Assembly: GCA_028709785.1 (NCBI GenBank)
Contig: JAQUTK010000002.1
Coordinates: forward strand, 124,001-188,000
From: Bacteroidales bacterium
GTDB lineage: Bacteria; Bacteroidota; Bacteroidia; Bacteroidales; JAQUTK01
Direction: 5' to 3'
DNA: 64,000 nucleotides
How positions within the stretch are numbered: the first letter of the stretch is position 1; the number at the start of each line of letters is the position of its first letter. The notes beneath the pieces are model-generated. The model had not been told where the DNA came from, searched no databases, and saw only the letters and a program-made list of their open reading frames with translations. Shown piece after piece: positions 28,194-32,238 of this stretch. A program made the position numbers and the translations under genes.

Positions 28194-28793
28194 ATGAAAA
28201 GAATTGGATTAGTTCGTTTTTTATTGCTTTTTTTCGTTACGGGGATGATATCTTCATGTAGCGATGACGATGAGAATGCGTGGAAAACACGCAATGAGTC
28301 TCTTTTTGATGCTCTTGGCAAGAAAGAAGTTGTTTTGCCCCGGTATCAAACGATTGGTCCAAATGACACAGTGAAGGTTGCGTACGATACACTGTTGTCT
28401 GTAAAGGTTCTTCCGGAAGAGGTTATTACTGATACGGCTTCCAATGGCTCCCTAATCAAATACAAAGTTCTCAGAAGGAGTGGCAATACTCAGACGCCCT
28501 ATTTTAATTCTATTGTAAAAGTTAATTATGAAGGCCGGCTGTTGAATGGTACCCTATTTGATACGACATACGGCAAGAATAGCACAGGACCGATGTCAAC
28601 CCTCGTTCGTGGTAATAATGTGGGCGGAATAATCAGGGGATGGACGGAGGTTCTGCAGAAAATGCATGTAGGTGATAAATATGAGGTGTATATACCCTGG
28701 AATATGGGATACGGGGATAGTAATAAAGGAAAGATACCGGGATATTCTACTTTAATATTCATCATGGAACTTGTCGAGATTACTGAATTATAA
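28194..28793 (+). CDS. FKBP-type peptidyl-prolyl isomerase lipoprotein
   Basis: 199-residue lipoprotein. The signal peptide ends in GMISSC, and the Cys is followed by SDDDE, the acidic pattern that directs Bacteroidetes lipoproteins to the cell surface. The C-terminal half is an FKBP domain: VNYEGRLLNGTLFDTTY, GWTEVLQKMHVGDKYEVYIPWNMGYG and STLIFIMELVEI. It probably helps fold exported proteins. It follows glyS by 1 bp and ends at a terminator. Confidence 0.92.
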   Translation: MKRIGLVRFLLLFFVTGMISSCSDDDENAWKTRNESLFDALGKKEVVLPRYQTIGPNDTVKVAYDTLLSVKVLPEEVITDTASNGSLIKYKVLRRSGNTQTPYFNSIVKVNYEGRLLNGTLFDTTYGKNSTGPMSTLVRGNNVGGIIRGWTEVLQKMHVGDKYEVYIPWNMGYGDSNKGKIPGYSTLIFIMELVEITEL

Positions 28794-28801
28794 GAAATAG
28801 T

Positions 28802-28831
28802 AAAGGGAGCTTTTTAAGGCTCCCTTTGTTT
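28802..28831 (+). terminator. Terminator after the glyS-FKBP operon
   Basis: Stem AAAGGGAGC with GCTCCCTTT, 8-nt loop, followed by TTGTTTT. Confidence 0.82.
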
Positions 28832-28877
28832 TGGAAATAAAGTGCAAAATATTGCTGACTGGTTTGTTGAGTTTTTG

Positions 28878-28885
28878 TACCTTTG
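28878..28885 (+). promoter_or_regulatory. -7 box of the NagB-like/PIG-L gene
   Basis: TACCTTTG, a perfect TAnnTTTG, 49 bp before the ATG. No well-spaced -33 element. Confidence 0.55.
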
Positions 28886-28934
28886 TAATTGATAATACTT
28901 TCTGCATGCGTTAAACTAAACAATATACTTTTTT

Positions 28935-30923
28935 ATGAGAACCAATCTTAGTTCAAAAATTAATCTTAACCAGGTCTCTACGAAATATTATAAACCTGGG
29001 AATTCTTTTGAGCGCTCTGTTCTAACCCGTTATGAAAAGGTTCCAACTAATATCTTTGAGACGACGGAAGAAGGCGTTAAATACATTGCTGATGATATTG
29101 CACAGCTTCTTCGTGAATCACAAAAGGAAGGTAGAAACTTTGTGATGGGACTTTCAGGCGGACATTCTCCGAGATATGTGTTCAGTGAACTGATACGTAT
29201 GCACAAAGAAGAGGGACTTTCATTCCGAAATGTCATTGTCTTTAACTTGTATGAATACTATCCAGTTTCGATGGAAGTAGCAAGCAGTAATTTCAGAAGT
29301 CTGAAGGAGTCATTCCTCGATTATGTGGATGTGAAAGAGGAGAATATTCATACGCCGGATGGCTCTGTTTCTATGGATAACGTGGCAGATCATTGCCGTG
29401 CATACGAACAGTCGCTAAAGGCTGTCGGAGGAATGGATCTTGCTCTTCTTGGTATTGGAAAAGAGGGAAATATCGCTTTTAATGAACCCGGTTCGCAGAT
29501 CAACTCAACTACGCGGTTGATTCTTTTGGACGGCACCTCCCGGGCGGAAGCATCGAAGCAATTCGGTGGAATGAAAAACGTGCCTATCAGTTCCATAACG
29601 ATGGGGATTGGTTCAATCATGGCTGCCAAGAAGATTTTTCTTGTTGCATGGGGTGAAGAGAAAGCTTCAAAGATCAAGATGACGGTTGAAGACAAAATGT
29701 CTGACACAATACCTGCTTCTTTTCTTCAGGCGCATAGTAACTCAAACATCGTCATTGATCTTTCCGCTGCGGCTAACTTGACCCGTATTCAGCGACCATG
29801 GCTGGTGACTTCCTGCGAGTGGAACAACAAGTTGATTCGCAGTGCTGTTGTCTGGTTATGTCAACTTACGCAAAAACCAATTCTGAAGTTGACGAATAAA
29901 GATTACAACGAGAATGGGTTGAGTGAACTTCTTTCGATGTATGGATCGGCATACAATGTAAATATCAAGATATTCAATGATCTGCAACATACGATAACCG
30001 GTTGGCCGGGAGGTAAACCGAATGCGGATGACAGCAATCGTCCGGAAAGGGCTAATCCTTATCCGAAACGTGCGATCGTATTTTCTCCGCATCCGGATGA
30101 TGACGTTATTTCCATGGGAGGTACAGTCAGAAGACTTGCCGAACAAGGTCATGAAGTGCATATTGCATATCAAACTTCCGGCAACATTGCTGTTGATGAT
30201 GAAGAAGTAACTCGTTTCATGATGTTCGTCAATGGTTTTAATGAGATGTTCAATCTCAATAATGCTCAAATAACCGAGCACTATAATGAGATTCGATCGT
30301 TTATCGGAAATAAGAAAGACGGAGATTTTGACAATAGTGATATATTGAGGATCAAAGGATTGATTCGTCGCGGAGAGGCACGTACGGCCTGTACGTATGC
30401 AAAGATAAAACCTCTGAATGTGCACTTCCTGGATCTTCCTTTCTATGAAACCGGAAAGATTGAGAAAAATCCGATTAGTGAGAAAGATGTCGAAATCGTA
30501 TTACAGTTACTTCGTGAAGTGAAACCTCATCAGATATTTGTAGCGGGTGATTTGGCGGATCCTCACGGAACGCACCGTGTTTGTACAGATGCCGTTCTTG
30601 CTGCAGTGGATGAGGAGAAGAGTCTTGGTGCGGAGTGGCTCAACGATTGCCGTATCTGGATGTACCGTGGCGCATGGGCAGAATGGGAAATAGAAAATAT
30701 TGAAATGGCTGTTCCGATGTCACCGGAGGAACTTCGTTTGAAACGGAATACCATTCTGAAACATCAGTCTCAGATGGAGGGTGCTCCATTCCTTGGAAAC
30801 GATGAAAGACTATTCTGGCAACGTTCTGAGGACCGTAATCGTGGCACTGCTGATTTGTATCATAACCTCGGGCTTGCTTGTTATGAAGCTATTGAGGCTT
30901 TTGTTGAGTATAAGCCTCTCTAA
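28935..30923 (+). CDS. NagB-like domain fused to PIG-L/LmbE deacetylase
   Basis: 662-residue two-domain protein usually annotated as glucosamine-6-phosphate deaminase. Residues 40-290 have the NagB fold (MGLSGGHSPRYVFSEL, GIGKEGNIAFNEPGS). Compared with E. coli NagB, catalytic Asp72 is Tyr106, Asp141 is Glu177 and ring-opening His143 is Asn179; only Glu148 (Glu184) is kept, so normal deaminase activity is doubtful. Residues 378-655 form a PIG-L/LmbE N-acetylglucosaminyl deacetylase domain with intact metal ligands His386-Pro-Asp388-Asp389 and His544/His547 (DPHGTHR). It converges on a sugar transporter gene, fitting amino-sugar use. Deacetylation of a GlcNAc derivative with sugar-phosphate binding by the NagB part is inference. 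Confidence 0.88.
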   Translation: MRTNLSSKINLNQVSTKYYKPGNSFERSVLTRYEKVPTNIFETTEEGVKYIADDIAQLLRESQKEGRNFVMGLSGGHSPRYVFSELIRMHKEEGLSFRNVIVFNLYEYYPVSMEVASSNFRSLKESFLDYVDVKEENIHTPDGSVSMDNVADHCRAYEQSLKAVGGMDLALLGIGKEGNIAFNEPGSQINSTTRLILLDGTSRAEASKQFGGMKNVPISSITMGIGSIMAAKKIFLVAWGEEKASKIKMTVEDKMSDTIPASFLQAHSNSNIVIDLSAAANLTRIQRPWLVTSCEWNNKLIRSAVVWLCQLTQKPILKLTNKDYNENGLSELLSMYGSAYNVNIKIFNDLQHTITGWPGGKPNADDSNRPERANPYPKRAIVFSPHPDDDVISMGGTVRRLAEQGHEVHIAYQTSGNIAVDDEEVTRFMMFVNGFNEMFNLNNAQITEHYNEIRSFIGNKKDGDFDNSDILRIKGLIRRGEARTACTYAKIKPLNVHFLDLPFYETGKIEKNPISEKDVEIVLQLLREVKPHQIFVAGDLADPHGTHRVCTDAVLAAVDEEKSLGAEWLNDCRIWMYRGAWAEWEIENIEMAVPMSPEELRLKRNTILKHQSQMEGAPFLGNDERLFWQRSEDRNRGTADLYHNLGLACYEAIEAFVEYKPL

Positions 30924-30940
30924 AAGAAATCCTGAAAAAG

Positions 30941-30978
30941 AATAAGCCCCGTCTCTGAATCAAGAGATGGGGCTTATT
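30941..30978. terminator. Bidirectional terminator after the NagB-like gene
   Basis: Stem AATAAGCCCCGTCTCT with AGAGATGGGGCTTATT, 6-nt loop, between convergent genes. Confidence 0.85.
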
Positions 30979-30999
30979 TCTTTTACTGAGGTTTCTGTC

Positions 31000-32238
31000 T
31001 TATTTCTTCAAGCCAGTTTTATAGCCGATGAATGCATAATAAACAATGAACAGGTACATTGGGAAGCAGATCCAATATGCTTTCTGGATATCACCAAAGA
31101 GATCTTTACATGCTCCAAAGAGTAAAGGAATCAAGGCGCCACCTACAATAGCCATGGTGAGTAATGCTCCACCTTTCTTTGTGTAATTGCCGAGGTGCTG
31201 CATAGCAAGCGCCCAGATGGGTCCCCAAAGCAGCGAATTGCCAAGTCCCATCAATGCTACCATAAAAATAGCGTAACTTGGAGGAACCAATACTGCCCCC
31301 AAAGAAGCAACAACACCGATACCTGCACATGCTTTCAAAGCGGTGTTTTGTGTGAAGACTTTAGGGATGGCTACAGCTCCGATAATATATCCTGCCCACA
31401 TACAAAGCACGGTAAACGTCACATAGTTAGCAGTATTAGCAAACCATTCAATCCCGAAAGTCTGAAGAAGTCCCGATTTTTCCAGACTTTTGGCAAAGTC
31501 AACCGGAGTTGCAAGAGCAATGGTTTCAACACCAACATAGAAGAACAAAGCAATCAAACCAAGTATCAGGTGAGGGTATTGAACAAGAGAACCTTCGGAA
31601 ACTTTAGTCTCTTTACTGTCGCTTTCTCCTTCCGCTTTTACTTCTGGAAGTGGTGAGAAATAAGAGAAAATTCCTAACCCGATGAATAAACAAACAATAA
31701 TGTAGAAAGGACTAATCATTTCACTCAAGTTCACTTTTGCACCTGCAGCCGTATTTATAAATATGGCAAGGAACATGGGTGCAATTGCCCAGCCTGCTTT
31801 ATTGAGGACACCCATGATAGCCATACGTTGAGTCGCACTTTCAATCGGTCCGCAGATGGTAATATACGGGTTTACAGAAGCTTGCAGGAAAGTATTTCCT
31901 GTTCCGCTGATGAAAGAACCTACTAAGAATAGCGGGAAGCTGACAATCTTGGCTGCAGGAATAAACAGATAGAGCCCTACAGCAAAAAAGAGAAAAGAAA
32001 GAGCCATTGTTTTCTTGTAACCAATCTTCTTGATGCAAGCTCCTGCAGGAATTCCAAAAAGGATGAATGGCAGGAACGTAGCGGTCAGTAGTAAATAAGA
32101 TTCCGTATCAGAAATATGTAAAGCATTTTTCAGATGAGGAATCAATATGGGATTAATTCCGAAAGCAAAACCAATTGCAAGAAATAAAATGCCGACGATT
32201 GATATCGCGACCAGATTTGTTTTTCCAGTGTTACTCAT
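31000..32238 (-). CDS. FHS-family sugar MFS transporter
   Basis: 12-helix major facilitator of 412 residues in the FucP/GluP (fucose-galactose-glucose-H+ symporter) group. The start (AISIVGILFLAIGFAFGINPILIPHL), the repeated Gly-rich loops and NPYITICGP in helix 5 are family marks. The polar linker around residues 200-215 separates the two halves. It faces the NagB-like/PIG-L gene, so a hexose or amino sugar is a plausible substrate. It has its own -7 box; the exact sugar is unknown. Confidence 0.88.
   Translation of the reverse strand: MSNTGKTNLVAISIVGILFLAIGFAFGINPILIPHLKNALHISDTESYLLLTATFLPFILFGIPAGACIKKIGYKKTMALSFLFFAVGLYLFIPAAKIVSFPLFLVGSFISGTGNTFLQASVNPYITICGPIESATQRMAIMGVLNKAGWAIAPMFLAIFINTAAGAKVNLSEMISPFYIIVCLFIGLGIFSYFSPLPEVKAEGESDSKETKVSEGSLVQYPHLILGLIALFFYVGVETIALATPVDFAKSLEKSGLLQTFGIEWFANTANYVTFTVLCMWAGYIIGAVAIPKVFTQNTALKACAGIGVVASLGAVLVPPSYAIFMVALMGLGNSLLWGPIWALAMQHLGNYTKKGGALLTMAIVGGALIPLLFGACKDLFGDIQKAYWICFPMYLFIVYYAFIGYKTGLKK

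Follow-up and report, generated by a model that had tools for sequence, protein, structure and literature searches.

The NagB-like/PIG-L fusion family

Proteins in which a glucosamine-6-phosphate (GlcN6P) deaminase-like domain is fused to a PIG-L/LmbE domain are gathered in the named family NF002557 (PRK02122), "glucosamine-6-phosphate deaminase-like protein". No publication dealing with PRK02122 or with any NagB/PIG-L fusion was found in the literature searched. The PIG-L/LmbE proteins are recognized by the HxDD motif as defined in PMC4101496. Concerning NagB, expression of the nagB of the F. johnsoniae chitin locus failed, and chitin use was unaffected when the gene was deleted (PMC5127042).

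The window analysed here is a stretch of 64,000 nucleotides from a Bacteroidales bacterium. It encodes a fusion protein with the following parts:

28935..30923, + strand: NagB-like/PIG-L fusion gene, 662 aa, member of NF002557 (PRK02122)
29064..29783, + strand: NagB-like domain, approximately residues 44-283, predicted to be catalytically dead (PF01182; AlphaFold model)
29784..30062, + strand: linker, residues 284-376, helical in its first part and disordered at about 358-368 (alignment and model)
30063..30920, + strand: PIG-L/LmbE domain, residues 377-662, predicted to be active (PF02585; fold match 8bgo)

The ORF check gives one open frame with an ATG start, in which the NagB-like domain, the linker and the PIG-L domain follow each other in this order. 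The protein matches NF002557 with 1047.4 bits (cut-off 384) from position 3 to 652 of the 653 positions of the profile; since this match covers the whole length, the databases already record the fusion and already label it with the word "like". Pfam Glucosamine_iso (PF01182) is matched by residues 44-268 (84.8 bits, cut-off 27) and Pfam PIG-L (PF02585) by residues 381-558 (69.0 bits, cut-off 28.2). With the nagB equivalog model TIGR00502 the score is 196.9-199.5 bits, under the cut-off of 236.9. The protein is a member of PRK02122 and is not to be filed as NagB. An identity as 6-phosphogluconolactonase was ruled out (TIGR01198, 79 bits for a cut-off of 124.45), as was the bacillithiol deacetylase BshB1 (TIGR04001, 28.4 bits for a cut-off of 182.5); for the PIG-L part, the scores for BshB1, BshB2 and MshB are all far under the cut-offs.

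Catalytic residues of the NagB-like domain

Three codons of the NagB-like domain correspond to positions of the E. coli NagB active site:

29250..29252, + strand: Tyr106 codon, replacing catalytic Asp72 (alignments)
29463..29465, + strand: Glu177 codon, where E. coli NagB has Asp141, a site that also varies among active NagB and among intact fusions (alignments)
29469..29471, + strand: Asn179 codon, replacing catalytic His143 (alignments)

The initial annotation had claimed that these three catalytic residues were lost. The alignment to E. coli NagB (the match to 1cd5 covers the same region) is gap-free and pairs Asp72 with Tyr106, Asp141 with Glu177 and His143 with Asn179, while Glu148 and Lys208 are retained as Glu184 and Lys243. 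The claim is borne out for Asp72 and His143. The motif FNLDEYY of the nearest fusions reads FNLYEYY in the window, and around His143 the motif GRTGHIGFNEPG of the nearest fusions reads GKEGNIAFNEPG. Tyr106 and Asn179 are invariant throughout the first homologue alignment (82 rows) and in all 85 rows after three rows were added, which rules out a sequencing error or chance; the gap-free motifs and the fixation of the changes in more than 80 relatives likewise rule out a misalignment or a frameshift. Nor did the alignment with E. coli NagB restore the Asp and the His.

The third replacement exists as a substitution, but it was dropped as a sign of lost activity. The Asp141 site is occupied by Val, Leu, Met or Glu in the window's clade, by Thr, Ser or Asn in fusions with Asp72 and His143 intact, and by Asn in the active NagB of B. 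subtilis (alignment with 2bkv). Because active NagB and intact fusions both vary here, Glu177 is not counted as a loss.

The doubt that the initial annotation cast on the deaminase label was well founded, since both key residues are lost, the score lies under the nagB equivalog cut-off and the genome has a canonical nagB elsewhere (C65:287-1063, about 150 kb from the fusion, 423 bits, with all catalytic residues present). In our judgement, it is very likely that the window protein lacks GlcN6P deaminase activity. The fold would nevertheless be kept: in an AlphaFold model built from 40 relatives (mean pLDDT 87.7), the match between the NagB domain and B. subtilis NagB 2bkv has a TM-score of 0.96 and an rmsd of 1.2-1.3 Å, and the domain is therefore predicted to fold.

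Conservation of the PIG-L domain

The metal-binding motifs of the PIG-L domain are located as follows:

30090..30101, + strand: His386-Pro-Asp388-Asp389, metal ligands and general base (HxDD motif), invariant
30558..30575, + strand: DPHGTH, residues 542-547, with third metal ligand His544 or His547, conserved in both groups of fusions

The metal motif of LmbE/PIG-L proteins (HxD1D2 and a further H) is represented by H386, D388, D389 and H544/H547. The HPDD and HGTH ligands had been described as kept in the window, and the alignments extend this to the family: HPDDD (386-390) and DPHGTH (542-547) are conserved in 85 of the 85 clade rows and, almost without exception, in the other 68 fusions. 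The linker is also strongly conserved in Bacteroidaceae. In the model, the solved fold nearest to the PIG-L domain is that of diacetylchitobiose deacetylase 8bgo (TM 0.63). Judged by its motifs the PIG-L domain looks intact, and it is likely, in our estimation, to have deacetylase activity on some GlcNAc-type compound. The protein as a whole is probably a PIG-L/LmbE deacetylase that depends on a metal and acts on a small GlcNAc-type compound, with a pseudo-NagB domain that has kept its fold and would no longer be a GlcN6P deaminase.

Intact and eroded fusions

Fusions were gathered from the phylum and the order, giving 213 distinct sequences. Both Asp72 and His143 are kept in 100 of them, both are lost in 109 and one is lost in four; the pair Tyr/Asn occurs in 92 of the 113 non-intact sequences. 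This split of the PRK02122 fusions into intact and eroded NagB sites is new here and is not made by the family model; Asp72 and His143 provide a simple residue rule for annotating the two kinds. The fusions with Asp72 and His143 intact also deviate from E. coli NagB at Asp141 and Arg172, so that their deaminase activity is an assumption.

The tree was obtained from the columns of the linker and the PIG-L domain only; with the NagB columns omitted, the trait does not shape the tree. One Bacteroidales clade holds 45 of the 50 eroded rows, with an SH-aLRT support of 89 (99 when the intact sister L165 is included), and three further small losses are found outside this clade. Forcing all eroded rows into a single clade gave a tree 136 log units worse, which was rejected (p-AU 2.8e-6).

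Within the eroded clade, the Asp72 position is occupied by Tyr, Ser, Gly, Cys, Phe or Ala and the His143 position by Asn, Ser or Ala. Bacteroidaceae, by contrast, have fixed Tyr/Asn. The invariance of Tyr106 and Asn179 in this family, and the fact that they move together, might be read as a new catalytic pair carrying out another reaction. We consider this highly improbable: in the sister lineages position 106 is taken by Ser, Gly, Ala, Cys or Phe and position 179 by Ser or Ala, and no family with a Tyr/Asn catalytic pair was found. The varied residues at the lost Asp and His look like decay, not like one new catalytic motif.

The divergence of the NagB domain points in the same direction. At equal PIG-L divergence, the median ratio of NagB to PIG-L divergence is 1.70 in the eroded clade vs 1.03 in intact fusions. 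In genome G504, the corresponding locus (L222:5944-7140, + strand) encodes a protein of 398 aa that comprises only the linker and the PIG-L domain and shares 68% identity with residues 288-660 of the window protein; the NagB domain is cleanly absent, and tblastn of the locus detected no NagB remnant. The NagB domain is therefore dispensable, at least there. The suggestion of the initial annotation that the NagB part may bind a sugar phosphate or have a different reaction gains no support from the variation of both sites in sister lineages, the faster divergence and this deletion.

Conversely, the Bacteroidaceae show more constraint than a pure relic needs. Their pocket is fixed for Tyr106, Glu107, Asn179, Asn183, Glu184 and Lys243, and a binding or structural role of the NagB-like domain may thus persist there. 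The domain could be ligand-binding or regulatory, sensing an amino sugar phosphate and controlling the PIG-L domain, as the invariance of the remaining pocket residues and the NagB fold kept in the model would allow. Such a sensor seems unlikely to us, since the positions of Thr41, Glu148 and Lys208 vary too in the eroded clade outside Bacteroidaceae and the domain has been deleted in one relative.

Under the preferred reading of a deacetylase with a pseudo-NagB domain, the ancestor would have combined both domains in one enzyme and had a functional NagB site, and most genomes whose fusion keeps such a site would have no other NagB. In Bacteroidales owning a separate canonical NagB, the proton-shuttle Asp and the ring-opening His would have disappeared jointly from the fused site; the NagB-like domain would then have diverged faster and been deleted in one lineage, while the PIG-L domain would have stayed under strong constraint.

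Co-occurrence with a standalone nagB

A canonical standalone nagB is present in 36 of the 37 genomes with an eroded fusion vs seven of the 43 genomes with an intact fusion (Fisher p 1.5e-14, uncorrected for kinship). The independent-pairs test leaves two pairs on well-supported branches and four on all branches; with only two to four independent losses, the association cannot reach significance in a phylogenetic sign test, and it is consistent in every one of these losses. The sole eroded-fusion genome devoid of a canonical nagB is a strongly reduced genome of 1.2 Mb (G386, locus L207).

The standalone nagB adjoins the fusion in four of the 80 Bacteroidaceae loci, in 19 of the 35 other eroded loci and in none of the 43 intact loci. 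In Phocaeicola and relatives (L078-L081), a 2.7 kb tblastn match corresponds to a canonical, standalone nagB that immediately precedes the eroded fusion. The adjacency in many genomes would suit a scaffold, in which the NagB-like domain joins the canonical NagB and thus brings deacetylase and deaminase into one complex. This we regard as very unlikely: the best fold match is the monomeric NagB of B. subtilis, the nagB of the source genome lies some 150 kb away and one relative has dispensed with the domain.

Neighbouring genes and the NagA question

The fusion gene of the window is flanked by hairpins (28780-28935 and 30923-31000) and is preceded by a promoter-like TACCTTTG element (TAnnTTTG-type, read by eye), which suggests that it is transcribed alone. 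It is followed by a convergent gene:

31000..32238, - strand: MFS sugar transporter, convergent to the fusion (NagP-like, sub-cut-off)

Relatives of this transporter (35-46% identical) directly follow intact fusions on the same strand in other Bacteroidales. The neighbours of intact fusions are ROK kinases and MFS sugar transporters, and nagA is found near the fusion in 26 of the 80 Bacteroidaceae loci, mostly directly upstream. All these neighbours point to amino sugar use. Five loci (L016, L026, L030, L188 and L247) have two tandem nagA-like genes beside the fusion.

A second type of fusion, of about 790 aa, was detected in genome G492 (L206:7889-10261, + strand), directly after an intact PRK02122 fusion and between ROK kinases and an MFS transporter. 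Similar frames of about 780-800 aa occur in G515, G415, G368, G407, G426, G495 and G572. The N-terminal NagB-like part seems to keep the Asp and the His (IDEFYP, GPDGHIAFN), and the C-terminal part contains the PIG-L-like motif GPHHDD. These proteins reach neither the NF002557 nor the Pfam Glucosamine_iso cut-off, and they have no Pfam PIG-L match.

The substrate of the PIG-L domain could be GlcNAc-6-phosphate (GlcNAc6P). The domain would then stand in for NagA: the ancestor would have converted GlcNAc6P into Fru6P in two steps on one chain, and in the source genome the PIG-L domain would work with the separate NagB. No NagA-like protein was found in this genome at E<=1e-3, and in the phylum sample NagA is present in 30 of 122 fusion genomes vs 17 of 25 genomes with a standalone nagB and no fusion (p 7e-5, hand count); the ROK kinases and MFS sugar transporters adjoining intact fusions agree with this proposal. 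However, the Bacteroidales control weakens it. There, NagA occurs in six of 37 eroded-fusion genomes, five of 43 intact-fusion genomes (mostly Bacteroidales) and six of 22 genomes with nagB and no fusion, values that are not different. Moreover, 21 of the 32 Bacteroidaceae genomes reached via fusion loci possess NagA, and the nagA genes near Bacteroidaceae fusions count against a replacement as well. We have left the replacement of NagA as a rival, tentative and somewhat doubtful, and not as the main reading.

These proposals can be combined into a more daring scenario, in which PRK02122 started out as an enzyme, unrelated to NagA, that deacetylated and deaminated GlcNAc6P in two steps. The deaminase half would have become a pseudoenzyme in Bacteroidales and, in Bacteroidaceae, would use the fixed Tyr106/Asn179 pocket to bind an amino sugar phosphate and control the deacetylase. 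Taken as a whole it is decidedly unlikely.

Comparison with known systems

In common gut bacteria (Bacteroides and relatives) the fusion gene accompanies a true nagB, adjacent to it or elsewhere in the genome. If the fusion is taken for a second deaminase, the reconstruction of mucin and chitin sugar use is distorted. The separation of intact and eroded fusions directs attention to the PIG-L domain as the part whose activity is of interest, and the family clearly illustrates how a fused enzyme domain decays where a separate enzyme exists.

Compared with NagB (TIGR00502; E. coli 1cd5/1dea, B. subtilis 2bkv), the window protein shares the fold and the equivalents of Glu148 and Lys208; it differs by the replacement of Asp72 by Tyr and of His143 by Asn, by its score under the equivalog cut-off and by the attached PIG-L domain. 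With NagA (TIGR00221), the GlcNAc6P deacetylase, it possibly shares the reaction, but NagA has an unrelated amidohydrolase fold and is absent from the source genome (E<=1e-3). With diacetylchitobiose deacetylase (8bgo, 3we7) it has in common the HxDD and H metal motif and the fold, whereas the identity in the fold alignment is only 19-20% and the fusion contains inserts and an additional N-terminal domain. In NF002557/PRK02122, both domains are matched over the whole length; this family model pools proteins with intact and with lost NagB residues, and the window protein belongs to the second kind.
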